Positions 48,660 through 64,000 of a DNA stretch of 64,000 nt are shown here, piece by piece. Below the pieces are notes generated by a model. The model worked only from the letters and a program-made list of their open reading frames with translations. It made no database searches and was not told where the DNA came from. Every line of letters starts with the position of its first letter. The first letter of the stretch is position 1. Source of the stretch: an uncultured Pirellula sp. (GTDB lineage Bacteria > Planctomycetota > Planctomycetia > Pirellulales > Pirellulaceae); contig CAIOHR010000235.1 in NCBI GenBank assembly GCA_903858115.1, positions 1 to 64,000 on the forward strand. The letters are read 5' to 3'. Made by a program: the position numbers and the translations under genes.

Positions 48660-50210
48660 ATGATCATGAAGTACGCGTTCTTTTGGTGGATGCTCATGTT
48701 GATTGGCATTAGCCACTCGTCAGCTACCGAGACCAAGCGTCCGAACTTTCTCTTTATCCTCGTCGATGACCAATCGCCGTTTGACTTGAAGTGCTACAAT
48801 CCAGAGTCCTCTTTGGAAACGCCAAGCATTGAATCTTTAGCGCGCGACGGGATGGTCTTCGACGGTGCGTATCACATGGGTTCCTACGTGGGTGCTGTGT
48901 GCTCGCCTTCTCGACATATGATCATGAGCGGGCGAACTGTTTGGCATTTGCCAACGGCTCCACTCGCCATGCAAAAGAGTTTATGCCCGCCAAATCTAGA
49001 ACAGCAGACGATCCCTGCTGTCTTCAACCGTGCAGGCTACGCAACCATGCGAACATGCAAGCAGGGGAACAGCTACGAAGCTGCAAACAAACTCTTCACC
49101 GTACGCCACGATGCCACCAAACGCGGTGGTACTCCGGAGACAGGGAGTCCTTGGCACGGCGATCGCGTTATGGAGTATCTAGCAGAGCGAGAGTCTTCAA
49201 AAGATGTAAAACCATTCTTGATCTATTTCGGTTTCTCGCATCCTCATGACGAACGCGATGGAACTCCAGAGCTCTTGGCCAAGTATGGAGCAACCAATCA
49301 TACAGATAAGACGAATCCTCCACCTGCCAACCCGAAGCAGCCCCTGTTGCCATCGAACTATCTACCGGCGCATCCTTTCCCACACGGTCACCCTGACTTG
49401 CGCGACGAAGTTGCGGTGAGTGGTGTTTGGGAACGGCGTGACGAACGGACCATTCGAAACGAAGTTGGTCGTCAATTCGCATGTAGCGAGAACATCGATA
49501 TCCAAATCGGTCGTGTGCTGAAGAAGCTCGAGGCGATGGGAGAGTTGGACAACACGTATGTCGTCTATACCGCCGATCATGGGATGGCGATCGGACGGCA
49601 TGGTTTGCAGGGGAAGCAAAATCTCTATCAACATACCTGGCGCGTCCCGTTCATCGTCAAAGGCCCCGGCATCCAACCTGGTTCGCGTGTCGAAGGGAAT
49701 GTCTATTTACTCGATGTCCTCGCCACATTGTGCGATTTGGCTGGCATTGCTCCACCGGAAACGAATGAGGGCACGAGTTTCAAGCCGATCCTCACTGGGC
49801 AAAAGCAAACCGTGCGTGACGTGCTCTACGGGGTTTACAGTGGTGGCACAAAGCCTGGCATGAGATCGGTGAAGAAGGGGGATTGGAAACTGATCAAGGT
49901 CGATGCGATGAACGGGGCGGTGCGCGAGACACAGCTTTTCCATCTTAAAGACAACCCAGACGAATTCGTGAGAGAACATCACGACGAGCAAGTCTATTCG
50001 CTTACAGGCGCGAAGCCCGCATCGCATCAAGTGAATCTGGCAGCGGATCCGAAGTACGCAGACAAATTAGCAGAGATGGAAGCGTTTTTGCTTGCTGAGA
50101 TGCGACGCTTAAACGATCCGTGGCGATTATGGAATCAACCCACCGACGGTCTCACCCCACCTCCCGAAGGGCCTCTCTCCGGCCAGGGTAAAGGGAAGAA
50201 GAAAAAGTAA
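48660..50210 (+). CDS. Cys-type sulfatase, third of three
   Basis: The 516-residue protein has a signal peptide (MIMKYAFFWWMLMLIGISHS). FLFILVDDQSPFDLKCY carries metal ligands and Cys81 in AVCSPSRHMIMSGRT is the modified residue; CSPSR rather than CSPTR is still a valid formylglycine motif. VVYTADHGMAIGRHGLQGK and a Lys-rich C-terminal tail (GQGKGKKKK) follow. It lies 73 bases after the second sulfatase, with GGAGACGG just before the start. The shape of the late TADHGMAIGRHG block resembles iduronate-type sulfatases. Confidence 0.9.
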   Translation: MIMKYAFFWWMLMLIGISHSSATETKRPNFLFILVDDQSPFDLKCYNPESSLETPSIESLARDGMVFDGAYHMGSYVGAVCSPSRHMIMSGRTVWHLPTAPLAMQKSLCPPNLEQQTIPAVFNRAGYATMRTCKQGNSYEAANKLFTVRHDATKRGGTPETGSPWHGDRVMEYLAERESSKDVKPFLIYFGFSHPHDERDGTPELLAKYGATNHTDKTNPPPANPKQPLLPSNYLPAHPFPHGHPDLRDEVAVSGVWERRDERTIRNEVGRQFACSENIDIQIGRVLKKLEAMGELDNTYVVYTADHGMAIGRHGLQGKQNLYQHTWRVPFIVKGPGIQPGSRVEGNVYLLDVLATLCDLAGIAPPETNEGTSFKPILTGQKQTVRDVLYGVYSGGTKPGMRSVKKGDWKLIKVDAMNGAVRETQLFHLKDNPDEFVREHHDEQVYSLTGAKPASHQVNLAADPKYADKLAEMEAFLLAEMRRLNDPWRLWNQPTDGLTPPPEGPLSGQGKGKKKK

Positions 50211-50360: not shown

Positions 50361-53300
50361 TTAGTCTACAAAAGCGACCGCAACACGAAACACGAACTGG
50401 TCCTTTTCCAATGGCCTGGAATATACCGGTGGTTGATCATTACCACGTACTTGAGTCTTTTGCCAAATGAAATTGACTGAAGATTCAAGTCTAGCGACTT
50501 CTGAGTTGCTTGATTTGGATGGAATAACTGTCGATGTCCATTCAGGTTGGTTCGCTGACTCGGTACGAAAGTAATATGGCCCCATGGCATTGGCAACATG
50601 AATGGAATTTGCATATTCAGCATTGAGTTCGCCAAATGCACAGCGAGTGAAGGTCCCCGCTCTTGCAAAGCATTCCCATTCCCAAACTGTTGGCGGGCGG
50701 TAACCTTTTTCGACGAAATTCAACTCATACTTCTTCTCATCCAGCCACTTGACCGAATCTCCCGTCGCAATCCCTTCTTGCGATGAAAGCCAATCGCAGT
50801 AGGAGACGGAGTCGAAAAAATTGATTCCTACCACGGGTTGGTCCTTCGGATTTGGAAATCGATCGGGGCGGAATCGAGCATACTGCACTTCTCCCACTAC
50901 CTGATCCGAATAGGCAAACGAATAGTCGATTCGCTTCATCGATCCAGGCGCCCTCGTCGTCGGACTGTTCCCAAACCAGAATTCTACGGGACCTCGGACA
51001 ATGTTCATTTGCATGCCTTGGGAATTCATATACCAATTGCGATTATCGGCGCGATTGCGAAATTCAGGATCAGCATCGACTTCGCTCACATACTTGTCGT
51101 GTCCCCATTTTTGGAGCATCAAACATATACCGGTATGTGCACCCGCAGACGGATGCTCGCGGTACCATATTCGAAATCGTTCTGTCCAGGAATCAAGCGT
51201 TGCGGGTTCGATATCAGTTTTCGGAACCAGACTCACCGTCGCGACAACGCCAGTGGATCGCCAGTCATCGTTGTATTGGCCCATTCGAGCCAACAGAGGC
51301 TCCAGCGATCGTCCAGATTGGCTTAACCAATAAATAAAATAATTACGAGCCTGAGGCGATTGCGAGAAACCAAGTATATCATCAACGATATTCATTTCGC
51401 CAAGACCGTAGGCGACCAGCGCACACTTCGCTTTCCAGCGTCCCACACTATCGAGCTGAGCAGTTGTTTGGTGAGAGTTCATCTTGGCTTCGCCGAATTC
51501 CTCGCGGATTTTCGATTGCCATTCGGCGAAATGGCTTGCCGTTTCAGTCATCGCGGAAACTACATACGGCAACTCAGCAGTTTCGCTCAATCGCAACAAC
51601 TCCATCAACTGCCCCCCGTCACCATCCGACTGCAATCGTCGAGAAAGCCCGCGGTACAGGTACTGCCGTTTGGTATCTTCAATCCCTTTCTTGGGAAGAG
51701 ACTGAATCGAGCCAACCATCCAGCTCGGCGCTTCGCTGAGAAACTTTCCCAGCGAATCGACTTGCGGCAATTCGAGATCTTTTACGAAGCTCAACAACAC
51801 ATCTTGGCTCTCTGTCTCGCTCGGACTCTGGTCAGCAATGCAAACACGCGAGAATTCCAATCGCCTGGCTTCGGCCTTGCCTAACTCACCACCAAGTTTC
51901 AAATCATCAAAGTCCAAAAAAATGAGACCTTTCGTTGTCTCTTTTGTTCGCACCAGCCAATTCGCTAGTTCTGCAAGGTTACCTTGTCGTACCCAACTCG
52001 ATAACGGATTTGCGGTCGATACAGGAGCCGTGTTCGTAACGAATGGAGCATTGCTGGCAAGCTGATTTTGGCGGTTACGAGATGATGGTAGAAGCTGCAA
52101 AGCGGCAAAACTAAATGCAATCAAAACACAAACAGCAACCGTCCATTGAAGTCCTGTTACCAATCTTCGTTGCTCGTCAATCGCGATCGATCGAGGCTTG
52201 CGACCATCGATCCATGCTTCGAGGTCACTGGCAAGCTCCTTTGCATCTTTGTATCGATTTGCCGGATCGATCTCGAGACATCGGCTCACAATCGAATCAA
52301 GTGCCAAGGGTATGTCCGACCGAATCGAACGGACGCGAGGAGGCTTGATTGTCCGGATCGAATTGATGATAACGCTTTCAGGTCCGTAAAACGGTAACGT
52401 CCCTGTTAGCAGTTCAAAGAGTATGACCCCCATCGAATAAACATCTGAACGACCATCGAGCGAGTCCGCTCGGCCAGCCGCCTGTTCGGGACTCATGTAA
52501 TGTGGGGTGCCTAGGATATCCCCAGACATGGTAATTTTGGTTTCTTTGCCATCGAGTTTGGCGATTCCAAAATCGAGTATACGAACTCGATGGCTCTCGA
52601 ATAACGGATCCGGAACGATGGTATCGCTCTGCGTGCGATCCGCGACCTCGATCATAATGTTCGATGGCTTCAAGTCGCGATGGATTACTCCTTCGGCGTG
52701 AGCGACAGACATCGCGTTGGCAATCTCCGAAACGACTCGAGCGCACCCTAACAGATTGAGACTAGCCGATTCACGGAATTCCCCGAGCGGCTTGCCATCA
52801 ATCAACTCCGAAACGAGATAATCAAGTCCTCGCCACGTCCCAACTTCATAGATTCGTACGATACTTGGATGCCCGACCTTGTTCGCGTTTTCGGCTTCTT
52901 TCGCAAATGTTCGAGATGTCTTATTCGGATTGGTTGCAACCTTCACTGCGACGCGCCTATGAATACTGATATCCTCTGCTTCGTAGACATCACCGTAGCT
53001 GCCTCGACCGATGAACCGTAGGATGGCAAAACGATCTATGTACAGCGGCAACAGATTCAGCTTCGATCCCGTGCGCACGGTATCGCTGGAGATATTCTCG
53101 ATAGTACCGGAGGAGGCGAGCTTTGAATCGAACAACAAAAATTCGTTAGGCGCCTCGACCTGGATTGGAGGATGAAACTCACGGCATTCCTTCTCGACCA
53201 GCATAAGTTCATGAAGAACGTATTGTTGATAAGCAGGATCCACCCAACTGATGCACTCTCGCATGTTGAGCTGAGTTCCGTTCTTCCAGCACACTTCGAA

Positions 53301-53387
53301 AGCCGAGCAGACGATGTCCATTTGCTCAGTGCTGTCGTAGCTGCGCAGCTCTTCAATGGAGCAGGAGAGAACACGGTCGGGAGTCAT
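50361..53387 (-). CDS. Ser/Thr protein kinase fused to an FGE-like domain
   Basis: The protein has 1008 residues. An N-terminal segment (1-115) is followed by a kinase domain (about 118-395) with the glycine loop IGRGSYGDVYEA, catalytic VAVKVA lysine, HRDLKPSNIMI and DFGIAKLDG, then an activation segment GTPHYMSPEQAAGR. One membrane span lies near 410-430 (WTVAVCVLIAFSFAALQLL), a helical extracytoplasmic region runs to about 740, and a C-terminal formylglycine-generating-enzyme-like fold (about 765-1008) holds FFDSVSYCDWL and RPPTVWEWECFARAGT. The conserved pair of catalytic cysteines found near the end of true FGE is absent: the final 95 residues contain no Cys. The FGE-like part is therefore probably a binding or sensing module. 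It faces the sulfatase genes, ending about 150 bases from the last one. Confidence 0.88.
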   Translation of the reverse strand: MTPDRVLSCSIEELRSYDSTEQMDIVCSAFEVCWKNGTQLNMRECISWVDPAYQQYVLHELMLVEKECREFHPPIQVEAPNEFLLFDSKLASSGTIENISSDTVRTGSKLNLLPLYIDRFAILRFIGRGSYGDVYEAEDISIHRRVAVKVATNPNKTSRTFAKEAENANKVGHPSIVRIYEVGTWRGLDYLVSELIDGKPLGEFRESASLNLLGCARVVSEIANAMSVAHAEGVIHRDLKPSNIMIEVADRTQSDTIVPDPLFESHRVRILDFGIAKLDGKETKITMSGDILGTPHYMSPEQAAGRADSLDGRSDVYSMGVILFELLTGTLPFYGPESVIINSIRTIKPPRVRSIRSDIPLALDSIVSRCLEIDPANRYKDAKELASDLEAWIDGRKPRSIAIDEQRRLVTGLQWTVAVCVLIAFSFAALQLLPSSRNRQNQLASNAPFVTNTAPVSTANPLSSWVRQGNLAELANWLVRTKETTKGLIFLDFDDLKLGGELGKAEARRLEFSRVCIADQSPSETESQDVLLSFVKDLELPQVDSLGKFLSEAPSWMVGSIQSLPKKGIEDTKRQYLYRGLSRRLQSDGDGGQLMELLRLSETAELPYVVSAMTETASHFAEWQSKIREEFGEAKMNSHQTTAQLDSVGRWKAKCALVAYGLGEMNIVDDILGFSQSPQARNYFIYWLSQSGRSLEPLLARMGQYNDDWRSTGVVATVSLVPKTDIEPATLDSWTERFRIWYREHPSAGAHTGICLMLQKWGHDKYVSEVDADPEFRNRADNRNWYMNSQGMQMNIVRGPVEFWFGNSPTTRAPGSMKRIDYSFAYSDQVVGEVQYARFRPDRFPNPKDQPVVGINFFDSVSYCDWLSSQEGIATGDSVKWLDEKKYELNFVEKGYRPPTVWEWECFARAGTFTRCAFGELNAEYANSIHVANAMGPYYFRTESANQPEWTSTVIPSKSSNSEVARLESSVNFIWQKTQVRGNDQPPVYSRPLEKDQFVFRVAVAFVD

Positions 53388-53489: not shown

Positions 53490-53594
53490 TTATTTTTCGG
53501 GAAAAAATCTTTCCATTGTTGTTTCGCACGCCTCGGCTCGGGCTTTTCGAATCTCCGACTCAGTCGCAATGACGGCCAGGTCTACGATCCTCAT
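53490..53594 (-). CDS. Possible 34-residue protein coupled to panE
   Basis: A short frame whose ATG (53592-53594) overlaps the TGA of panE as ATGA. It encodes MRIVDLAVIATESEIRKARA and then EACETTMERFFPEK: a mixed, charged helical peptide with no signal. The overlap and reasonable composition argue for a real translated product. Its short length and lack of a known family argue against it. No separate promoter would be needed if it is translationally coupled. Confidence 0.3.
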   Translation of the reverse strand: MRIVDLAVIATESEIRKARAEACETTMERFFPEK

Positions 53595-54646
53595 GGCGTT
53601 GTTTCTCTGTGCAACCGTCGAATGATTTCTTCGTGGGCAATAAACTTGGGATTCGGCTTTCCTTCGAGTTCATGGGTCAAGGAAACGATAGTGTCATTGA
53701 TGGGTGCTTCACAGCCAATCCTCTTTGCGAGTTTTACGAATTGCCCGTTGATGGAGTCGACTTCCGTTTTCTTCCCGCGTCGAAGATCTTGAAGCAATGA
53801 GAAGACAATTGGGTTTCTTTCAAAACGAGAATGAATGGCCATTCGAATGATTTGCCCCAAAAGGGGAATTTCCATTAGGTGCATCAGCTTTTCTAGTCGA
53901 CTGAGATCGGAGCGACCTGGTATGCGTTCGATTTGGATGCTCGCTTGCTTGAGCACCGATCTGCATTCGCGAACGATTGGCAGGCCGATATCTCTGCGCC
54001 AATGCTTCGCCCCGATCGCCTCGTTTATAAAATTGGAGTTCGACAAACAAGAAGCATAGCCCAGGGCATTGATCGCGAGCTTATTGTATCGAATCCCAAG
54101 AATGTTCTCGTGCAATGCAAAGTGAAGCCCGGGAACACGGATCCCCTGGAATAGCGTGGCGACACGACGAGAAGCCTGGTTCGCTTGGTTTCCGTTAGGC
54201 CCCCCAAACATTGTCACGCCGTTCAGTTGCATGCTGACCTGTCCAGGCTTCGTCACGGCCATGTTCGTCGAGGTCATACCCATCACGAGCCTATCGTGAG
54301 GAACAAAATCTGCATAGGCCGTATCGTTGATTCCATTCTGAATCGAGATTACCGTTGCGTTGCCTAGATAGGAAGCAGCGTCTTCCAGCATCGATTGGGT
54401 ATCTTGCGATTTGACTGTCACAAAGACGAAATCGCTTCCAGCAATATCGTTGCAGTTCGACGAACAACCCATCGATACCTTCTTTTGCCCCCAAGGCCCA
54501 ACGATTTCTACGCACTGATTTCGCATCAGTTCGTCTCCAAAGACTCCGCGCACAACCAGTCGAACTTGCAAATCGGATCGAGACTCACGAAGCAAAGCGC
54601 CAAACATTGCCCCGATGGCACCTGCCCCTAAAAAACTAACTTTCAT
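53591..54646 (-). CDS. panE: 2-dehydropantoate 2-reductase
   Basis: The enzyme reduces ketopantoate to pantoate with NADPH in pantothenate and CoA synthesis. The start at 54646 gives 351 residues beginning MKVSFLGAGAIGAMFGALL, the Rossmann motif; the seven extra upstream codons are not needed. Other family blocks are FVTVKSQDT, ISIQNGIND and the catalytic Lys/Asn region RYNKLAINALGYASCLSNSNF (about 192). The C-terminal domain has GKKTEVDSINGQFVKLAKRIGCEAPIND, where the family's conserved Glu/Asn bind substrate. It is somewhat longer than E. coli PanE but within the family range. The call is for the family; relatives acting on other 2-keto acids cannot be excluded. Confidence 0.82.
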   Translation of the reverse strand: MKVSFLGAGAIGAMFGALLRESRSDLQVRLVVRGVFGDELMRNQCVEIVGPWGQKKVSMGCSSNCNDIAGSDFVFVTVKSQDTQSMLEDAASYLGNATVISIQNGINDTAYADFVPHDRLVMGMTSTNMAVTKPGQVSMQLNGVTMFGGPNGNQANQASRRVATLFQGIRVPGLHFALHENILGIRYNKLAINALGYASCLSNSNFINEAIGAKHWRRDIGLPIVRECRSVLKQASIQIERIPGRSDLSRLEKLMHLMEIPLLGQIIRMAIHSRFERNPIVFSLLQDLRRGKKTEVDSINGQFVKLAKRIGCEAPINDTIVSLTHELEGKPNPKFIAHEEIIRRLHRETTP

Positions 54647-54871
54647 GTGCGATTCCGACTTTGGCAAATCTCATGGTGTACGACCTGGTCGCTATCAAAA
54701 TTAATCCAGTTGAAGTCCCATGGACTCACAAACGACATCAATTCTGGTCAGGCTAGATTTGCGACAAGGAAGAAAAACCCAGTTATCATGATCCCAGGCT
54801 TACCCGTTGTCTAGTAGACTCAACTGCGGTAACCTCGGGCCAGAAGACGGAAACGCTTCGATGATCAAGAT

Positions 54872-54943: not shown

Positions 54944-56203
54944 ATGACTTTTGTTGCAATAGTGCTTTGCGTTGTGGTCGTTTGTTTGGGATGGATGCAA
55001 CTTTTGCCTGGGTTGATTTTTGCTCGCCTTTTGTTTCAACCTAAACCAGTAGTTTTGGAGGACGCCCAATGTCCTAAGGCTGCGGTGCTGCTTTCCGTTC
55101 GTGGGAACGATCCTTTCCTGGGGGATTGCGTCGCATCGTTGTTACGTCAAGACTATCCGACGTTCGACATTCGCATCGTCGTCGACCACGAAACGGATCC
55201 CTCTTGGAGGGTGATCCAGGATATCGTCACTCGGATGAATCCCTCAAACGTGACTATCTCCGTACTGGGGGAGAAATTTGGAACTTGCACGCTGAAACCT
55301 AACAGTCTCCTCCAGGCCCTTTCACAATTGGACGACTCGTACGAGGTCATTGCCATACTGGATTCTGATGCGGTAACCCATCCGACGTGGCTGAAGGAAT
55401 TGGTTGCACCTCTCCAGGACGAGACGATCGGAGTAGCATCAGGAAATCGTTGGTATATGCCACAACGGGCAACGATAGGTTCCCTCGTGCGATACACATG
55501 GAACGCAGCGGCGGTAGTGCAGATGTACTTCGGTCACTTTACCTGGGGTGGTAGTGTAGCGATTCGTGGAAGCGTGGTTCGCAATTCGAAACTGCAGGAT
55601 CGCTGGAGGCACTCGATTGCAGAAGATACCGCAATCTACGGTGAAGTGCGTGCATCTGGAATGAAGGCAGCCTTTGTACCTTCGCTGATGATTGTGAATC
55701 GAGAGTCATGTGGTCTCCTCGAGTTCTTCGCTTGGATGAAGAGGCAACTCTTGGTCGGGCGATTGCAACATGCGGGGTGGCACATGGTATTTTGGCACGC
55801 GGCTATTACGTCGCTCCTGCTAACAGCGTCCGTTGTCCTCCTCGTCGCTGCTGTGGCAACGGCGAATAGGCCAGCAGTTATTTGGATGGGAGCTGGGCTC
55901 GTTGCCTATACCGTATTGCAGACATCTTTGTTGTTCGTGCTGGAAGCCGGGGTTCGCAAGACGGCACGTGACCGAAATCAGCCTACAAACTGGATGACGC
56001 TTGCGACGCTTGGCAAGCTAGCAATCGCATTGCCATTAACACAGATTTTGTATAGTGCTGCAATCCCAACGATTCGATTTATGCGGGATGTATCTTGGCG
56101 CGGAGTCAAGTATCGTATCGAGGGGCCTTGGAATATTCGCCTGATTTCCTATAAGCCCTTCGAAGCATCAAAACACAAGGAAGAGTCGCAAGCGTCGTTA
56201 TAA
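54944..56203 (+). CDS. Membrane glycosyltransferase, GT2/GT21-like (ceramide glucosyltransferase type)
   Basis: The 419-residue protein begins with a hydrophobic segment (about 2-26), then a GT-A catalytic domain: KAAVLLSVRGND, the metal-binding DSDA near 143, GGSVAIRGSVV near 204, the general-base EDTAIYGEVR near 227 and a KRQLLVGRLQH block in the place of the processive QxxRW-type motif. Three or four membrane segments close the protein (about 285-400), ending WRGVKYRIEGPW. This is the arrangement of ceramide glucosyltransferases and of the hopanoid HpnI relatives, which transfer a sugar to a lipid. The exact lipid is unknown. It is divergent from panE, with a candidate promoter upstream. 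Confidence 0.78.
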   Translation: MTFVAIVLCVVVVCLGWMQLLPGLIFARLLFQPKPVVLEDAQCPKAAVLLSVRGNDPFLGDCVASLLRQDYPTFDIRIVVDHETDPSWRVIQDIVTRMNPSNVTISVLGEKFGTCTLKPNSLLQALSQLDDSYEVIAILDSDAVTHPTWLKELVAPLQDETIGVASGNRWYMPQRATIGSLVRYTWNAAAVVQMYFGHFTWGGSVAIRGSVVRNSKLQDRWRHSIAEDTAIYGEVRASGMKAAFVPSLMIVNRESCGLLEFFAWMKRQLLVGRLQHAGWHMVFWHAAITSLLLTASVVLLVAAVATANRPAVIWMGAGLVAYTVLQTSLLFVLEAGVRKTARDRNQPTNWMTLATLGKLAIALPLTQILYSAAIPTIRFMRDVSWRGVKYRIEGPWNIRLISYKPFEASKHKEESQASL

Positions 56204-56245: not shown

Positions 56246-57487
56246 CTAGCGATTTGTATCGGCTTGCTTCATTTGCCGAATAGCTGTGGCACCCTCGGGT
56301 GTGAGAGAATAGTTTTCGACGGTCTTTTGAACGAGCCAACCTGCTGCTCGCGGATTCCAAAGTAACAAACACGTTACCCCAAGGAACGGAAAAATACTCA
56401 ACCAATCGCTTGACCACCGAGTGATTTCATCGCGGCTATTTTCGTATTCATCCTCGGATCGCAACAATCGTAGCAACTCGCGCAGGAGTTGAAGCCTGGT
56501 AGCACCATGGAGCGCCATCGAAGTTAACGTCAAAAAACCTAGATGTGACTTCACTCCGGCATTCCCCATGGATTCGTCTCGTTTCCCCTTTCCAAAAGAG
56601 ATATCGATCCATGCCTGGCATAAATTGACGCCACTTTCGTATGCGAGGACCGTTTCCCCAATTCGTGGATTGCATTCGAAAATCGAGCGAAGGTTCGCGC
56701 CATCATCATAAACATATTCAAGGCACATGGCACCATGCCAATGCAACTGGGAGCCAAAACGGGTTATCAATTCCTTCATCTCGGGGTCATGCACCGTAAT
56801 CTTCGCATTCGCCGATCCCCCCACTCCGATGCTGCGACTTTGGTAAACATGAAACGCCATTAATTCTCCGTTTTGAAAGACCCCCGTTGCGCCTCGCTTC
56901 AATCCACTCGCATGTTGTTGTACGACAACCTGACGTATGCCATCGAACCATTCACGTCCTTCTAATTCCTTGCCGATCGACTCCATCTCTCTGCGAGAGG
57001 GAGCATATCGAACTCCTTGCCCTGCGGTGCTAAAGTCGAGTTTAATCCAACAAGGAAATTGATCGCAACTCATCAGCTCCTCCTTCGTTTGAACGATACG
57101 ATAGGCTGGTTGCGGCATACCTGTTTCGTCAAGCAATTGGGAAAACCGAGCTTTGTTCATTGTTCTGTCAAGCACTTCGAATTGCGGTACTGCCATCGCA
57201 ATGCGTGACTCGAATATTTGCTGAAAGCGAGAGAGCAAGTAGATTTGTTCATGCGTCGGAAAGAGTACGTCGTAGGCCCCCGTTTCGATACGTTCCATGA
57301 GGAATTGCAAATAATCGCTAGGTTTGCTCGAAAAGGGTGGGCAACGATGCCATCGCTTCACCCATCGCGAAAAACGGCATTGGCAAAGAGACGACGGATC
57401 GAGAATATCAATCGTGTGCTGTGGACCTAAACATGTAATCGATTGACGCGCAGACGTACTGGAGCCATCCGTCATCAAAATCTTCAT
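56246..57487 (-). CDS. ATP-grasp enzyme, cluster-associated
   Basis: The start at 57487 gives 413 residues, MKILMTDGSSTSARQSI onward; the frame is open to 57607 but without a better start. It has an N-terminal domain (about 1-95), a TLDRTMNKARF-like hinge with LDRTMNKARFSQLL, and an ATP-grasp core with PCWIKLDFSTAGQGVRYAPS (about 155-174), VVVQQHASG, and the metal-binding SIFECNPRIGETVLAYESG near 290. A C-terminal part of about 100 residues carries a hydrophobic patch (WLSIFPFLGVTCLLLW). ATP-grasp enzymes join a carboxylate to an amine, thiol or similar group. It lies 263 bases downstream of the alpha/beta hydrolase on the same strand. Carbamoyl-phosphate-type ligases are the nearest in shape; substrate unknown. 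Confidence 0.72.
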   Translation of the reverse strand: MKILMTDGSSTSARQSITCLGPQHTIDILDPSSLCQCRFSRWVKRWHRCPPFSSKPSDYLQFLMERIETGAYDVLFPTHEQIYLLSRFQQIFESRIAMAVPQFEVLDRTMNKARFSQLLDETGMPQPAYRIVQTKEELMSCDQFPCWIKLDFSTAGQGVRYAPSRREMESIGKELEGREWFDGIRQVVVQQHASGLKRGATGVFQNGELMAFHVYQSRSIGVGGSANAKITVHDPEMKELITRFGSQLHWHGAMCLEYVYDDGANLRSIFECNPRIGETVLAYESGVNLCQAWIDISFGKGKRDESMGNAGVKSHLGFLTLTSMALHGATRLQLLRELLRLLRSEDEYENSRDEITRWSSDWLSIFPFLGVTCLLLWNPRAAGWLVQKTVENYSLTPEGATAIRQMKQADTNR

Positions 57488-57750
57488 GTAGCGTTTCGCG
57501 GATTTGGGATGAAAGAGTCGTTCGCTGAAACAGACAGCTCTGCTTCTCAAATAAAAATTGAATTCGCGGAAATGGTTCGGATCGGGGTGTGAAGCTTTGC
57601 AGCACACTTGTTAGCCTACCACTCCACCACACTATACCTTAACCAATATAACCTGTGATGCCGCTTTGGTTCAAGCAATTACCATTGGCTGAACCCAAGC
57701 TAGAGTTTCCGGAGCCTCCGCTCTGTCAATTGTTGAACAGGGATCACGTG

Positions 57751-58605
57751 TCAGGTGTGAATCAAGTGCATGATATGGGTATGTAAATCGTGCAGGTATT
57801 TTCTCGGGTCTGGCTCGAACTCGAGCGTATGAGCTGCATCCGGATATTCGACGATGGCCTTTTGAGGGGAGGCAACTCGGTCCCAGTACATGCGAGTACG
57901 ATCGTTGTCAACAATTCGTTCTTGTCCTGCCAGCATCAGAAACATAGGAATCTGGATTTGCTCCGCACAGGCTCGTACCAAACGATTCAGTTCTAGATCG
58001 GCTACCGCAAAGCGAACCGTGATCTTCCTCAACGTGAAAGGATCATCTCGGATATAAGTCTTGTAAAACGAGCTCTGGGTAAACAACGCAGGATCACGCA
58101 ATGGGATCGGAACTCGTTGATTTCCTAATCCCCCCCAGGTTGCCATTCGCACCATCCATTGCTTCGTCAACGAAACTTGTTGATATGCGTAGATACCAGG
58201 ACAAATAAGTCCAACTCCTGCGAGTGCACTCTTGTTGCGGCGTCGATTTATCGATTGGCGCGCCGCAAGTAGCGCCGCTAGTTTCCCCCCCCAGCTTACT
58301 CCCAATACGACGGTTGGAAGCTGACAACTCAACCCATCTAGGTAGTCATCGAAATCCTGAATCCATTGATCGACATGGGGCGAATCACCGCGATCTCGAA
58401 AACTCAGCCCCGATCCCCGGCGATCGAGAGCATGAACTTCTATCGCGTTATCTGCTAAGTGTTGACAACTACGCAAGTACCAGCCGCTATGACTGACAAT
58501 TCCGTGAATCAGAATAACACGAACCGAAGCATTCGTCGGTCTCCAAACTCGTGCTGCCATCGGATAGCCATCGCGAGCTGGTTGATAGTTTATTTCTGGT
58601 GCCAT
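57751..58605 (-). CDS. Alpha/beta hydrolase, last of the tightly packed operon
   Basis: The 284-residue serine hydrolase has VILIHGIVSHSGWY (oxyanion region, about 30-43), the nucleophile Ser in VVLGVSWGGKLAALLAA (about 105), a catalytic Asp in AGQERIVDNDRT and His in YPDAAHTLEFE. The VHALDRRGSGLS segment is typical of monoacylglycerol-lipase-like members. No signal peptide is present, so it is cytoplasmic. It starts ten bases after the enolase-superfamily gene stop, so it is clearly cotranscribed. In a biosynthetic operon it could release, transfer or edit an acyl group; the substrate is unknown. Confidence 0.8.
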   Translation of the reverse strand: MAPEINYQPARDGYPMAARVWRPTNASVRVILIHGIVSHSGWYLRSCQHLADNAIEVHALDRRGSGLSFRDRGDSPHVDQWIQDFDDYLDGLSCQLPTVVLGVSWGGKLAALLAARQSINRRRNKSALAGVGLICPGIYAYQQVSLTKQWMVRMATWGGLGNQRVPIPLRDPALFTQSSFYKTYIRDDPFTLRKITVRFAVADLELNRLVRACAEQIQIPMFLMLAGQERIVDNDRTRMYWDRVASPQKAIVEYPDAAHTLEFEPDPRKYLHDLHTHIMHLIHT

Positions 58606-58615
58606 CCGTTCGTTG

Positions 58616-59797
58616 CTACCCCCACACCCATCGATTCTCAGCGATTTTCATTCGCTGGAGAACTCGCTTATCGAGCGTGACACCTATTCCAGGCCGATGC
58701 AAGGCCGGAGCGCGTCCACCATAGCCAAATGTAATATCTTCATTCGTCGGAAGTTCTTGCAAAAGATGGCGGTCGTACGAACCTTCGAGATAACGGATTC
58801 CTCGAATGTGCGTTGCCCAATGCCTGCCGGCTGCTGATAGAATTCCTGTCTCACCCGGATGGCACCCCAATTGAATCCCAATATCATTCAGGTGCGCATA
58901 TTCAGCAATTCGAATGCTGTTCACGAATCCGCCGCATTTGGAAAGTCGAATGTTGAACAAATCGCACGCACCCAACTTCGTAGCCAGCTTTGCATCCTCG
59001 AGACTGGTCAGGGATTCGTCCAGCATAACTGGAACCTTCCAGTGCGCTTTGAACAGAGGGATCGAATTAAGCTCTTCATGAGGGCAAGGCTGTTCTAGAC
59101 AACTGATTCGCATGGGCAGGAGTGGCTCGATCTTCTCCGAGACTTTGTCAACAGACCATGCTTCATTGGCATCGAGTCGGATGTCCATCTTTGAGCCGAG
59201 CCAGAACCGCAATCGCTTGACTCGTTCGGGATCGTTGGCTCCATTGACACCTACTTTCACTTTACATTGCTGAAATCCATAGAGTCGCATCTTGATGGCA
59301 CTCCTACGTTCTTTGGCTACATCGTCTGCGGTGATCGTCGTCGAATAGCGGATGAATTTTCTCGCTTCCGCGATCGTGCATTGGGGCTGCAGATGTTTTA
59401 TTGCTGCGCTAATGGGCTCACCGAACAAACGTCCGAACGCATCAAGGATACTCAATTCCACTGCACAACGAAGTGCGTTCGATCTGTGATTACGAGGGTC
59501 CGGCGCCTGTTGATTAGGGTGAAAACGTTCACAGAGCGCGATCACGTTGGGCCAATCATGGCACTCCAGATCTAATTGCTGAGCAAGCGGCGTTTCTTTC
59601 AACTGCTGCATCGCGCCCTGGGCCGATTCCCCTGTGACATAATCACGCGGGACACCTTCCCCCCAACCGGTCGTTCCATCCGCGAGTCGACAACATACCA
59701 AAACGTTTTGACTATCCGTTCGCGATGCAGAAGCGTGTTGGATTTTGCGACGAAGTGGCAATTGAATGACGTAAGCCTGTAACTCGACGATGCGCAT
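58616..59797 (-). CDS. Enolase-superfamily racemase/epimerase-like enzyme
   Basis: This is a 393-residue protein of the muconate-lactonizing subgroup. The N-terminal capping domain starts MRIVELQAYVIQLPLRR, with TGWGEGVPRDYVTGE. The barrel shows the first lysine motif CKVKVG near 178, metal ligands in IRLDANEAW, CLEQPC and MLDESLTS, and the second catalytic lysine in IRLSKCGG near 297. All the residues needed for proton abstraction are present. Relatives are dipeptide epimerases, N-succinylamino acid racemases, OSBS and muconate cycloisomerase; sequence alone does not decide. It lies between the reductase and the hydrolase, ten bases from each, so it probably acts on an intermediate of the PKS pathway. 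Confidence 0.82.
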   Translation of the reverse strand: MRIVELQAYVIQLPLRRKIQHASASRTDSQNVLVCCRLADGTTGWGEGVPRDYVTGESAQGAMQQLKETPLAQQLDLECHDWPNVIALCERFHPNQQAPDPRNHRSNALRCAVELSILDAFGRLFGEPISAAIKHLQPQCTIAEARKFIRYSTTITADDVAKERRSAIKMRLYGFQQCKVKVGVNGANDPERVKRLRFWLGSKMDIRLDANEAWSVDKVSEKIEPLLPMRISCLEQPCPHEELNSIPLFKAHWKVPVMLDESLTSLEDAKLATKLGACDLFNIRLSKCGGFVNSIRIAEYAHLNDIGIQLGCHPGETGILSAAGRHWATHIRGIRYLEGSYDRHLLQELPTNEDITFGYGGRAPALHRPGIGVTLDKRVLQRMKIAENRWVWG

Positions 59798-59807
59798 GCG
59801 ATCGGCC

Positions 59808-60827
59808 TTAGCCTTTCACCAACCGCGGGACCTTCATTTTCCCAGTTGCCCACTCGAGTGCATCCGGCATCCCTTGTTGAAAGTCTACTGCTGGCGCATA
59901 CCCAAGGATGGATGTCGCCTTGTCGATCGAGAAGTCCAGATTCATTGCCATAAACTTGATGGTAGCTCGCGTCAAAACCGGCGATTCCTTGCTGCCGATC
60001 AGGCTTGCCCATCCCTCCACAAAGGGCACCAGAAACTTAACTATCCCCAAGGGTACGTGACGTGGTATGGGTTTGCCCAAATAGCTTGCCACCGTCGTCA
60101 AGTACTCGACGCGCGTGACCAGCCGTTGATCGCGAATATTAAACGTTTGTCCTACGGCTTTTTCATTGTCGATCGCCAACAAAACAGCATCAACGAAGTT
60201 GCCAACATAGGTATTGTTCAGCACCTTCATTCCGTTTCCTAAAAATTTGACAATCCCCTGGTCGAATCGCTTGAGCAATCTAGGAATCACGGCTCGCTCT
60301 CCTGGTCCATAGGTAAAGCCAGGCCGAAGGATTGTTGCAGGGAATTTGTACTCATCCATATAGCGTTTGAGTACGATCTCAGCCTCCGCCTTGGTTCGCG
60401 TGTATCCGTCGAGGCCTGTCAGGCTTGGCGGAGTCTCTTCGTCCGTCCCGAAGTGATCGCGAGCAGGATAAACACCGAGCGAACTCACTTGAACCCAACG
60501 TCGCAACTGGCCTTTTTGCATGGCACATGTAAGCAAATGTTCAAGCCCGACGACATTGATTTGCCGATAGATCTCTGCGGGGCCCCAGTCACCGATATGA
60601 GCGGCTGCATGAACCACAACATCTACTCCTTCGAGAGCCATTGGCAAGCTAGCCTGGTCCGCAAGGTCTCCGATTGCGTACTCAACATCCAGCCCTTGGA
60701 GCAATGTGCGATCAGAGTTCTTTCTCGCTAAGACACGAACATTGTAACCCTCCTCTACTGCTCGTCGAGCTACAAAGCTGCCGATCATACCGGTAGCTCC
60801 GGTAACCAAAATGCGTTCGTTTTTCAT
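59808..60827 (-). CDS. NAD(P)-dependent 3beta-HSD-like reductase (extended SDR)
   Basis: The start at 60827 gives 339 residues beginning MKNERILVTGATGMIGSFVARRA with the nucleotide-binding TGATGMIG motif. VVVHAAAHIGDWGP resembles OleD-type and 3beta-hydroxysteroid dehydrogenase relatives. The catalytic Ser-Tyr-Lys set is in VQVSSLGVY and GYTRTKAEAE, followed by ILRPGFTYGPGER. Its ATG overlaps the GH3 stop (ATGA), so it is coupled. The 46 codons upstream of this start lie in the GH3 gene and are a shadow. It may reduce a keto group of the polyketide product. Other extended SDR substrates (sugars, flavonoid-like compounds) are possible. Confidence 0.83.
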   Translation of the reverse strand: MKNERILVTGATGMIGSFVARRAVEEGYNVRVLARKNSDRTLLQGLDVEYAIGDLADQASLPMALEGVDVVVHAAAHIGDWGPAEIYRQINVVGLEHLLTCAMQKGQLRRWVQVSSLGVYPARDHFGTDEETPPSLTGLDGYTRTKAEAEIVLKRYMDEYKFPATILRPGFTYGPGERAVIPRLLKRFDQGIVKFLGNGMKVLNNTYVGNFVDAVLLAIDNEKAVGQTFNIRDQRLVTRVEYLTTVASYLGKPIPRHVPLGIVKFLVPFVEGWASLIGSKESPVLTRATIKFMAMNLDFSIDKATSILGYAPAVDFQQGMPDALEWATGKMKVPRLVKG

Positions 60828-62509
60828 ACCTTGCCGGTACTCGGATTCGCTTGTGAAGTTGAAGTGATTCGTTCGATAAAGCCGAGTTCGGCAACCAAAC
60901 AACGATGTTTGTACTCTTCGAAATTTCCGCGGGCCGCGGATTTCCTCTGCCGAAGCGCTATCCAAGTTCCCGGCTGTACTCGCCGCATAGTGAGTGGCAA
61001 GATACGCCCGGATAGACGCTTATCAGCATACTCGAAATTTAGCCTGCCCAGCTCTTCATCCACACATCGCGCCAGGGTTTGTTGATCGCTAGGGTTCAAA
61101 GAGATTTCCGTAAGGAGCACATACGCTGGGCGATCCCGCATCTCGGGTGCAATGCAGAATTCGCCGATGTCGATCTGGGTTTGTTGCTGGGCTTGCGTAA
61201 CAGCAGTTACGATCTGGAACTCGCTAAGTTTTTCGCCAGTGATGCTTGAGAAGTGGGCTCCTTTGTTCAAAAAGACCAATCGCGGAGCTTTCCCCAGAAA
61301 GCCTGTGCAGCGGACTACATCATGAATATCGTAGCGATATAGGCCTGCAGATGTTGTTAGCAAGATATAGTAATCCTGTCCTTCTTCCAGTTCATGCGAT
61401 TGCAAGACTATCGGCTTGTCGCTGTCGATTTCAGCCACAGGAACAAACTCGTAAAAGTGATGATTGAATTCAATCACACCTTCGCTCGTGCCATCTTGGA
61501 GAGGAATGGTCATTCGCCCTTCACTCGCATTCAATCCATGATCGCGCAGGGCTGGTTTACCGTAGTACTCTTCCAGTTTTGGGATGTAAACGGAAACCGA
61601 TCCGCCTTGCCATACGGCCAATACAGATAAATGAGGCCAAACATCGCGAGGGTAGAGTGTCCCTTTCTCGGAAACGATCTTCGCCAGTTCCTTTGCTCGC
61701 ACTCGCGAATGTGACTTGAAATACGATTGGAATGCCGATCGTGGAGCATCTGGAAGCGACGACGCGCCAAAGAATGTACCGTCGTGAATGTCTCGAATAA
61801 AGTTTTCGGATTGATCGTTCATGAGGCGAGCGAACTCGATCAGCGTGCTCGGGTTCGCAGTTCCGATCATTCCAACGTGGGGATTGATCATAGCAATTCG
61901 AAGAGCGACACAGTGTTTCCAATGGGACTCATTGATCTTGTACACATCGCTCGGCAGTACAAATCGACTGCGTGCAATCCATGGTGCTGTCTCTGCAACT
62001 AAGCCACTGATAGCCCCGCACGGTGTCCCACCCTCGGTAAAGAATTGCTGCCAATTGCTTCCCAGCTTTAGAGTCTTCTTATTGACCAGATCGGGATGAT
62101 CACGGTAGGTTCCAACCCCCCACAAGTTCCAACCGTGGCGGTACTCCTCGAACGACTCTTGCGTGACAGGTATGAACTTGGACTTATCCGTCGTTCCAGA
62201 CGTCATGGCAAACATGATCAGCTTCGTACCTGGCCCGAACATCGCAGAGATTTGCCCCTGCTTGACTTGCTCAATGTACGGTCGATAGTATTCGTAATTA
62301 GCAATCGGAACGCGGCGGCGGAAATCCTCTAGGGAACGAATTTCCGAAAACCCGTGATCGACACCGAAGCGGCTATTGGCATGACGACGAAGCTTCGCAA
62401 ACAGTACTTGGTGTTGGATTTCTGGTGAGCGCTTGGCATTCTCTGAGAATCGCTTGAGTTCAAGCGTCCGCAACCATAAATATGCGCGTTTCACAGTTCT
62501 ATCCAGCAT
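60824..62509 (-). CDS. GH3-family acyl-adenylate (amido) synthetase
   Basis: This 561-residue member of the ANL adenylate-forming superfamily is related to plant auxin-conjugating GH3 proteins. Motifs run in the family order: SRFGVDHGFSEI and FRRRVPIANYEYYRPYI near the N-terminus, the phosphate loop FAMTSGTTDKSKFIPVT (about 101-117), GASEGRMT-like NASEGRMTIPL near 327, and YRYDIHDVVRCTG near 390. The C-terminal domain includes RPAYVLLTEIS. Such enzymes activate a carboxylic acid with ATP and transfer it to an amino acid or amine. It starts 18 bases after the polyketide synthase stop and overlaps the reductase gene. In this context it may load or modify the released polyketide acid. Bacterial members are poorly studied, so the role is inference. 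Confidence 0.85.
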   Translation of the reverse strand: MLDRTVKRAYLWLRTLELKRFSENAKRSPEIQHQVLFAKLRRHANSRFGVDHGFSEIRSLEDFRRRVPIANYEYYRPYIEQVKQGQISAMFGPGTKLIMFAMTSGTTDKSKFIPVTQESFEEYRHGWNLWGVGTYRDHPDLVNKKTLKLGSNWQQFFTEGGTPCGAISGLVAETAPWIARSRFVLPSDVYKINESHWKHCVALRIAMINPHVGMIGTANPSTLIEFARLMNDQSENFIRDIHDGTFFGASSLPDAPRSAFQSYFKSHSRVRAKELAKIVSEKGTLYPRDVWPHLSVLAVWQGGSVSVYIPKLEEYYGKPALRDHGLNASEGRMTIPLQDGTSEGVIEFNHHFYEFVPVAEIDSDKPIVLQSHELEEGQDYYILLTTSAGLYRYDIHDVVRCTGFLGKAPRLVFLNKGAHFSSITGEKLSEFQIVTAVTQAQQQTQIDIGEFCIAPEMRDRPAYVLLTEISLNPSDQQTLARCVDEELGRLNFEYADKRLSGRILPLTMRRVQPGTWIALRQRKSAARGNFEEYKHRCLVAELGFIERITSTSQANPSTGKV

Positions 62510-62527
62510 TGCGATTCTTCCATGGCT

Positions 62528-64000
62528 TCATTCCGAGACCGTCGCCTCGATTCGTGTCACGATGTTTGCTAAGGCTGATGCGTTTTCACCTTCCATCATG
62601 GTGAAGTGATCGCCCGGGGACTCAAACAATTGGAGACGGTCCTCGAGCACTGCTTTCCATCCCAGATCGTGATCGAGCTTCTGTCCAGTCATCTGACTAA
62701 GGACGTCAGGCTTCATGGGTCGAACCAAAAGGACATTCACATCGATAGGTTTTAGATCATAACCACTGATCATCGTTGCGTGTGCCTTCGCGGCTTGGAC
62801 CACTTTTCGGAAGTAGCTAATCGGAACTCCTTGCGGCAAGGCCCCTGCGGATTGTGCCAAATCGGAAGCAAACTGCCATCGCGAATCTTCATCCATGGCT
62901 CCCAGTTTTTCTAACATGCCACCGTCGACTTCGATGTTGGTCCCCTTGAACCAGTTGGCAAATCGCCCCAAATCAAGCATGAATCGAACGTCGTCGTCTA
63001 GCGGCACATCCGCATAAATAGATGGCAACGGCGTATCTAATAACGTAAGCGTTCCGACCTCCTCTCCGTTTTCGGTCAAGATACGTGCCAATTCGTATGC
63101 GAAGATACCGCCAGCGGACCAGCCCACGAGATGATACGGGCCGCTGGCTTGTACCGTGCGTATCGCATTCAGATAATCATCCATCATTTCCTCCATCGAT
63201 AGATGGGGATCGTATTGGCCTTCGCCGCCACGACCTTTCACGGCAACAATCGGACGACCGGAGGAGTACCGAGCTAGGTCGGCATAACACTGAATTGTGC
63301 CACCAAGCGGGTGAATGCAAAAGAGAGGGTCGATGCCGGTAATCGGATGAAGCTGTTCGAGGGGCGACCAGCCTTCTTGCTCAGCGGAATGGCGATTTTC
63401 TTTCGTCGATCCTCCCTCGTCCATGGAGTCGATTTCACCCCCAGACCCTTCACGGTTCTCAACATGCGTTAAGACCACTTTGGCTAACTGCAAAAGCGTT
63501 GGACCGCTCAGTATCTCATTCATGGGCATCGAAATGGCCGCTTCTTTCTCAACACGGTTCTTCAGTTCAATCGCCATCAGAGAATCAAGCCCCATTTGAT
63601 TCAATGGTGTTTCATGTTCAACGTTTTCTACAGCAATACCGAAGACACCAGCAATTTGTTGTGCGATAAAGGCCTTGGTAAGCTCCAGTCTCTGGTCTGC
63701 ACTCGCGGACCGGAGGCGCGAAGCGAAGGAACCACTTGCACCCGACTCCTTTTTGGTACGAACGAGCTGTTCAAAGAATGAGAGTTCTTTGAGCAATGGA
63801 GCGAAGCTGGCGGCGAGATTCCAATCCACCGTGGCAATCGAAACTTGAGGTGTATCAAACTCGACCGCTTGATGAAACGCACGTACCGCTTCCTTCATGG
63901 GTATCGGAAGCAACCCGGTCTTCTCTAAGTACTCTGCCGTTTTCTGATTCCGCTCGACAAACCCAGCGCCACGAAGCGCGCCCCAATCGATCGTTAACGA
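62528..64000 (-). CDS. Type I polyketide synthase, C-terminal part (KR end, ACP, thioesterase)
   Basis: The frame is open to the window edge on the minus strand, so only the last 490 residues are seen. The edge encodes LTIDWGALRGAGFV, then VDWNLAASFAP, the end of a ketoreductase or a PKS linker. An acyl carrier protein follows (about 125-200 of the visible part) with the phosphopantetheine serine in GLDSLMAIEL. A thioesterase closes the protein, with PLFCIHPLGG, the nucleophile Ser in LVGWSAGGIFAYEL and the His in GDHFTMME. The ACP-TE end means the chain is released here. A TTG at 63911-63913 is not a real start. The upstream modules and the start lie outside the window. The gene leads the operon down to the hydrolase at 57751. 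Confidence 0.9.
   Translation of the reverse strand, partial: SLTIDWGALRGAGFVERNQKTAEYLEKTGLLPIPMKEAVRAFHQAVEFDTPQVSIATVDWNLAASFAPLLKELSFFEQLVRTKKESGASGSFASRLRSASADQRLELTKAFIAQQIAGVFGIAVENVEHETPLNQMGLDSLMAIELKNRVEKEAAISMPMNEILSGPTLLQLAKVVLTHVENREGSGGEIDSMDEGGSTKENRHSAEQEGWSPLEQLHPITGIDPLFCIHPLGGTIQCYADLARYSSGRPIVAVKGRGGEGQYDPHLSMEEMMDDYLNAIRTVQASGPYHLVGWSAGGIFAYELARILTENGEEVGTLTLLDTPLPSIYADVPLDDDVRFMLDLGRFANWFKGTNIEVDGGMLEKLGAMDEDSRWQFASDLAQSAGALPQGVPISYFRKVVQAAKAHATMISGYDLKPIDVNVLLVRPMKPDVLSQMTGQKLDHDLGWKAVLEDRLQLFESPGDHFTMMEGENASALANIVTRIEATVSE

Follow-up and report, generated by a model that had tools for sequence, protein, structure and literature searches.

A GH3 and enolase-superfamily gene cluster of Planctomycetota that may direct the synthesis of an N-acyl amino acid lipid

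The gene cluster described here lies in the first 64,000 nucleotides (hereafter the window) of contig CAIOHR010000235.1 (C235) from an uncultured Pirellula sp. (assembly GCA_903858115.1). Five minus-strand genes encode a type I polyketide synthase (PKS), a GH3-type acyl-acid amido synthetase, an extended short-chain dehydrogenase/reductase (SDR), an enolase-superfamily enzyme and an alpha/beta-hydrolase. We propose, with a probability of about one half, that the cluster makes an N-acyl amino acid lipid through acid synthesis, GH3-dependent amide formation, inversion of the alpha carbon, carboxyl extension and tailoring. In the first step, the single-module highly reducing PKS (HR-PKS) would make an acid, probably C-methylated, through iterative cycles or by elongation of a fatty starter unit, and its thioesterase (TE) would free this acid; in the second, GH3 would adenylate the free acid and form an amide with the amino group of an amino acid. 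The enolase-superfamily enzyme would then deprotonate the N-acyl amino acid at the alpha carbon and invert that center, an ATP-grasp enzyme encoded nearby would attach a second building block, an amine or an amino acid, to the carboxylate left free, and two reductases and the alpha/beta-hydrolase would tailor or O-acylate the lipid, which an MMPL pump would export in some relatives. The GH3 and enolase-superfamily steps would form the heart of the pathway, and the acid source would be interchangeable. Gene content, linkage, intact active sites and recurrence were observed directly, and from them we infer every chemical step.

The five genes follow one another with gaps, from the PKS onward, of 18, -4, 10 and 10 bases, an arrangement described in an initial annotation of the window; the open reading frames (ORFs) bear out this packing and Pfam bears out the families. 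Recurrence was scored by tblastn (>100 bits) in 18 relatives whose GH3 is 45-66% identical to that of the window: 17 from a sample of 346 Pirellulales genomes, 27 of which hold a GH3 at E<=1e-20, and genome G033, with the window's own genome excluded. Near GH3 in these relatives, we found the enolase-superfamily gene in 16, the SDR and the PKS in 12 each, the hydrolase and a ketopantoate-reductase-like (KPR) gene in 11 each and the ATP-grasp gene in seven. Queries taken from two of the relatives themselves located a FAAL-like-ACP protein in seven, an MMPL pump in four and a desaturase in three. The misses include short contigs: that of G174 starts 245 bases before GH3, that of G229 is 8,655 bases long and that of G159 ends about 6.3 kb upstream. 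All five genes are neighbors in five of the 18 (G033, G343, where they are split over two contigs, G248, G147 and G089), the outcome that the annotation named as support for its reading, and the order PKS-GH3-SDR-enolase-hydrolase is kept in G248 and G147. Both this recurrence and the 16/18 pairing of GH3 with the enolase-superfamily gene exceed chance. As a control, none of five loci with a distant GH3 (about 25% identical, from the same order and drawn from the nine remaining GH3 genomes of the sample) has an enolase-superfamily gene nearby. The cluster GH3 was absent from all 26 congeners searched. The annotation's term 'polyketide operon' holds for the five-gene packing, but it is not really apt because the steadier core consists of the GH3 and enolase-superfamily genes, frequently joined by that for the hydrolase, with a PKS slot that is exchangeable or empty. 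Its five-gene extent was also too narrow, overlooking the ATP-grasp and KPR genes; both belong to the recurring neighborhood (7/18 and 11/18, respectively) and are likely further cluster members.

The pairing extends across the phylum. In a sample of 392 planctomycete genomes, GH3 (E<=1e-60) occurs in 56, the enolase-superfamily gene (E<=1e-30) in 41 and both in 39, against an expected 5.9; the hypergeometric P is 8e-38, and when families are counted instead, with 114 as their minimum number and family f64 entered on the strength of two different genomes, it is 2e-13, both values ignoring kinship and including the query genome. The enolase-superfamily gene occurs without GH3 in two genomes, G419 (73% complete) and G423 (a 27% match). 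In 13 of these 39 genomes the two genes share a contig and are no more than 4 kb apart, and the gap between the matches is 65-120 bases in eight distant genomes; the pair of G445 is adjacent too, as seen at a lower threshold. Named records contributed 76 GH3 loci, a set with many short contigs and several genomes that overlap the other samples; an enolase-superfamily gene is present in 26 of them and a hydrolase in 22. In five loci (L137 from G550, L133, L135, L136 and L138) a gene for a patatin-like protein neighbors the pair, and in all of them but L136 there is also one for a MinD/ParA-like ATPase, these labels coming from Pfam for L137 and from clustering for the others. Monoglyceride-lipase (MGL)-like hydrolases were seen in G550, G523 and G462. 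At L152 (G517) the enolase-superfamily gene adjoins an SDR and a hydrolase, both of the families seen in the window cluster, with no GH3 within the 20-kb stretch.

The GH3 protein is a member of the acyl-acid amido synthetase family, for which amide formation is predicted. Its N, M and C domains score 228.3, 81.9 and 68.1 bits, respectively, against a Pfam cut-off of 23.6 each, its best match in the Protein Data Bank (PDB) is plant JAR1 (4epl), and it carries the C-terminal GEK lysine, which we take to be a GH3 motif. The nucleotide motifs SGT..K, SE and GLYRY..D (named as in PMC12493201) are present, and the core positions are conserved across 41 aligned rows. The closest experimental precedent is OlsH of Singulisphaera acidiphila, which was characterized in 2025 among bacterial GH3 homologs numbering over 7500 BLAST hits and which needs neither CoA nor an acyl carrier protein (ACP) to convert free fatty acid into N-acyl-ornithine with ATP and Mg (PMC12493201). 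Like the window, the OlsH/OlsI system joins a planctomycete GH3 to an alpha/beta-hydrolase partner; unlike it, the window has a racemase-like partner and a dedicated acid supplier. The suggestion in the annotation that GH3 reactivates the released acid thus has a precedent, because the related OlsH takes free fatty acid (PMC12493201), while the chemistry at this locus would still be our reading of the genes. The window GH3 is not OlsH itself: it is 24.6% identical over 569 alignment columns and scores 133.4 bits on the OlsH model NF052613, under the 620-bit cut-off, and S. acidiphila carries GH3s of both kinds (at 2.01 and 7.80 Mb), where the true OlsH scores 990.7 and the second GH3 scores 53 and 33 in two pieces. 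Of 40 GH3s scanned, 39 match this model at E<=0.001, with a best E value equal to that of the window (8.5e-39). Deletion of OlsH removed the sole ornithine lipid detected in S. acidiphila (PMC12493201), and therefore the second GH3 was no stand-in under those conditions. At locus L086 (G366, Rhodopirellula sallentina SM41) two different GH3s share one cluster, one beside a PKS fragment and the other between MMPL and ATP-grasp genes.

In the enolase-superfamily enzyme, K179, D209, E235, D260 and K287 are aligned in 36/36 rows and K181 in 35/36. This is what we take to be the signature of the MLE subgroup (KxK, three metal-ligand acids and a second lysine), and the window enzyme belongs to that subgroup. 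The best PDB match by sequence is the N-succinyl Arg/Lys racemase 2p88 (24% identity), whose loop GEGV..VTGES is similar, and it is also the best fold match by Foldseek (TM 0.86/0.92; model pLDDT 94.6). Dipeptide epimerase 3q45 ranks second by both sequence and fold; such epimerases hold the free amine of their substrate through a DxD motif, in place of which the window enzyme has YLEGSY, a stretch conserved in its family that aligns opposite YYDFDT of 3q45. It is somewhat doubtful, although it deserves serious weight, that GH3 makes the N-acyl amino acid while the enolase-superfamily enzyme catalyzes a different reaction of that product or of a precursor, such as elimination, cycloisomerization or epimerization of an alpha-methyl acid. 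The top NCBIfam match is a muconate cycloisomerase subfamily (107.7 of 334.95 bits), the conserved YLEGSY and GETG/GESG stretches differ from the aligned racemase and epimerase, and a C-methyltransferase (MT) domain in the window PKS would suit an alpha-methyl acid. However, an N-succinyl amino acid racemase is the best match by sequence and by fold, and the MT domain occurs in just one of 11 compared HR-PKSs, that of the window, whereas an enolase-superfamily gene lies near all 11.

The PKS gene occupies C235:62528-71065 and encodes 2845 residues in one module, KS-AT-DH-MT-ER-KR-ACP-TE. The C-terminal end seen in the annotation (KR, ACP and TE) stands, but the gene is not complete in the window and runs on to contig position 71065. 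The protein contains a single highly reducing KS-AT-DH-ER-KR-ACP module with intact active sites and is an iterative highly reducing type I PKS, iteration being predicted; it scores 1251.5 bits on the NCBIfam Pks2 model, under the 2400-bit cut-off. Ten PKSs from the same slot in relatives share 57-91% KS identity with one another and only 46-49% with that of the window, and 0/10 carry an MT domain. All 11 carry a TE, and that of the window is nearest to the TEs of G343 (54%) and G033 (49%), the others compared being at 34-41%; G343 also holds the GH3 nearest to the window's (66%). Because the KS is distant and the MT unique, yet the TE close to those of G343 and G033, the front end looks to have been replaced by a methylating one with the TE kept.

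The acid source beside GH3 varies among an HR-PKS, a type II KS pair, a PfaA-like PKS and none found. In S. acidiphila DSM 18658, genes for two FabA-like dehydratases, an ACP, a pair of ketosynthases and a hydrolase precede GH3, and the enolase-superfamily gene and a hydrolase lie further on. At three loci of family f21 (L091 from G645, L093 and L100) GH3 is preceded by a large PKS and an SDR, and no enolase-superfamily gene is linked to it; the PKS of G645, the only one of the three scanned, has PfaA as its closest model (534.5 of 1010.1 bits), with a phosphopantetheinyl transferase gene after it. The same PKS holds an internal C45-type acyltransferase domain (131.9 bits; cut-off 85), and a dihydrodipicolinate-synthase-family gene follows GH3 at that locus. 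In G042, G135 and G159 a desaturase is present and a PKS was not found in the stretch fetched. The AMP-binding-PP-binding protein near GH3 in 7/18 relatives is read here as a FAAL-ACP and would be a likely loader. The window's own genome encodes a FAAL-like protein at C433:10110-11816 (in a 1192-residue frame; 44% over residues 202-640), a possible loader for the window PKS, and MMPL proteins (33-34% identity) on other contigs. Independent functions sharing the region, with cooperation confined to GH3 and the enolase-superfamily enzyme and the PKS a passenger, would fit the occurrence of other acid suppliers elsewhere and the six of 18 relatives in which no PKS was found near GH3, though the contigs of G174, G229 and G159 end <=6.4 kb upstream. 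Nevertheless, we consider this unlikely, as the gap between PKS and GH3 is 18 bases in the window, a PKS lies near GH3 in 12/18 and the TE groups with the downstream genes despite the difference in the PKS front.

The remaining genes would supply the later steps. The ATP-grasp protein gave no Pfam match and no PDB sequence match, but among Foldseek hits to its model (pLDDT 79.9) ranks 1, 3 and 4 are L-amino acid ligases, including 4wd3 and 3vot; its relatives begin near Met41 of the window ORF. The KPR protein belongs to the 2-dehydropantoate 2-reductase family (ApbA/PanE), and its gene lies between PKS and GH3 in G033, G079, G090 and G142. In the hydrolase, which is monoglyceride-lipase-like, the GxSxG serine is present in 18/19 rows and H259 is invariant; orthology to OlsI is unsupported (25.6% identity over 117 columns, E 0.003, to an S. 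acidiphila ORF assigned as OlsI by position). The top two NCBIfam matches of the SDR are OleD models (145.2 and 144.3 bits), which would suit an Ole-like route in which the SDR makes a beta-hydroxy acid, GH3 activates it to a beta-lactone and the hydrolase opens or decarboxylates the ring. We consider this route improbable: the OleD scores lie far below the 580-bit cut-off and HpnA, also far under its cut-off, is nearly equal at 137.9, the hydrolase resembles monoglyceride lipases, the search of 6/18 relatives showed no SDR near GH3, no OleA-like thiolase was noticed nearby, although no search was aimed at one, and GH3 does not, to our knowledge, belong to the OleC family. A parallel of the hydrolase, enolase-superfamily and adenylating enzymes with MenH, MenC and MenE of menaquinone synthesis is highly improbable and was rejected: the gene content is similar and five o-succinylbenzoate synthase models score 33-76 bits, but every MenC score is below its cut-off (72.9 against 200.65 bits for TIGR01928), nothing in the window's genome exceeds the TIGR01928 cut-off, the enolase-superfamily gene reaches E 1e-30 in only 41/392 planctomycete genomes and the characterized GH3 enzymes known to us form amides.

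Extended to the whole phylum, the N-acyl amino acid lipid proposal becomes more tentative: Planctomycetota would share an amino-lipid pathway in which GH3 forms the amide and the enolase-superfamily enzyme then inverts the finished N-acyl amino acid to yield N-acyl-D-amino acids, with interchangeable acid makers, and the lineage of the window would have exchanged its PKS front for a methylating one while keeping the TE and the downstream genes. Several points weigh against the local and the wider proposal. The phylum counts ignore kinship, include the query genome and scored at most four candidates per genome. GH3 stands without a detected enolase-superfamily gene in 17/56 genomes (16 counting G445 as paired), and the gene is missing near GH3 in two of the 18 relatives (G041 and G229). 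Ten of the 31 GH3 genomes at phylum level, G445 included, have the pair linked and 21 do not, the linkage in G439 and G457 being judged on loci of about 3-4 kb. The 21 include a distant GH3 clade of 17 genomes in which the pair is never linked, 7/17 having a hit on another contig, and in family f21 of the same class it is linked in 1/20 genomes holding both (G620). The ATP-grasp gene is near GH3 in only 7/18 relatives, and its fold is one that is widely shared, with CPS and PurK close behind the ligases. The enolase superfamily also carries out cycloisomerization and dehydration, and 24% identity would not fix the reaction. Finally, the product, substrate and activity of the pathway are predictions from its genes. 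In a tree of 82 GH3s, which includes all 31 phylum-level genomes and was built by a quick method with SH-aLRT only and several long branches, linked rows fall on both sides of deep forks and the starred branches require at least nine changes of linkage label; the history may be one of old linkage with repeated loss or of repeated gain, both being compatible with the tree.

The features of the locus are listed in Table 1. For the SDR we chose as start an ATG with a 4-base overlap with the GH3 stop; the longest ORF begins at 60965. The ATP-grasp gene lies 143 bases downstream of the hydrolase gene on the same strand, and the KPR gene lies further on, past a plus-strand glycosyltransferase gene. 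The latter, which scores 78 of 310 bits on the NCBIfam HpnI model, was nearby in 0/18 relatives; a role in the cluster was rejected, and the gene is probably outside the recurring system. The contig is 89,152 bases long in an assembly of 7.89 Mb and 445 contigs. It looks native because three flanking genes have counterparts in the nearest congener, G023, with identities of 93, 78 and 79%, on three different contigs of that genome, and GC is uniform (0.49-0.52 for the cluster genes, 0.51 for the contig); bin contamination, estimated at 5.48%, was rejected as the source of the cluster on the same grounds. Elsewhere in the window, a protein kinase of 1008 residues with a C-terminal sulfatase-modifying-factor-like domain (50361-53387) adjoins a sulfatase gene (48660-50210).

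Table 1. Genes of the cluster and its surroundings in the window, with the basis of each assignment.
Feature	Position	Strand	Basis
Type I HR-PKS, 3' part (KR end, ACP, thioesterase)	62528..64000	-	ORFs, Pfam, active-site motifs
GH3-type acyl-acid amido synthetase, 561 residues	60824..62509	-	PF03321, GH3_M, GH3_C
Extended SDR (3beta-HSD/OleD/HpnA-like reductase)	59808..60827	-	Pfam Epimerase/3Beta_HSD, NCBIfam; 12/18 relatives
Enolase-superfamily enzyme, MLE subgroup, N-acylamino-acid-racemase-like, 393 residues	58616..59797	-	PF13378 (MR_MLE_C), PDB 2p88
Alpha/beta-hydrolase, Hydrolase_4, monoglyceride-lipase-like	57751..58605	-	Pfam; GxSxG serine, H259
ATP-grasp ligase, probable start Met41 of the 453-residue ORF 56246-57607	56246..57487	-	Predicted fold; 7/18 relatives
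Family 2 glycosyltransferase between KPR and ATP-grasp	54944..56203	+	Pfam
Ketopantoate-reductase-like (ApbA/PanE, KPR) reductase	53591..54667	-	Pfam, NCBIfam; 11/18 relatives

Other known systems share parts of this arrangement. Mycobacterial methyl-branched lipid loci (Pks2-like PKS, FAAL and MmpL) also rely on a single-module reducing PKS, and FAAL-like and MMPL genes stand beside relatives of the window cluster, but release is by acyltransferases there and would be by TE and GH3 here. Plant GH3 enzymes such as JAR1 (4epl) share the GH3 domains and ATP motifs, whereas that of the window is bacterial and clustered with PKS and enolase-superfamily genes; the Bacillus cereus racemase 2p88 shares the catalytic lysines and metal ligands, whereas the window enzyme is coupled to GH3. 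Stieleriacines, the N-acyl tyrosines of planctomycetes, are likewise N-acyl amino acids but are attributed to NAS enzymes, and the words 'GH3', 'enolase' and 'polyketide' do not occur in the available main text of that report (PMC12479983). The swf clusters of sponge symbionts also have a single reducing module, KS-AT-DH-ER-KR-ACP, but its partners are the reductase/sulfotransferase SwfB and the radical SAM enzyme SwfC, unlike the GH3 set of the window, and 'GH3' does not occur in the available text (PMC3908369). The annotation knew of no described cluster with this set of genes, and we found none in the open-access literature, most subscription journals and bioRxiv lying outside the search.

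If the proposed N-acyl amino acid lipid pathway is true, its product would belong to a kind of bacterial amino lipid that has not been described. The genes point to a second planctomycete GH3 group, associated with one specific partner enzyme and with polyketide or fatty-acid suppliers that can be exchanged, which allows a direct search for its product. S. acidiphila DSM 18658, which is called genetically tractable in PMC12493201, carries a version of the pathway. If the racemase step is right, the pair of GH3 and enolase-superfamily enzymes would provide a new way to make D-amino lipids.

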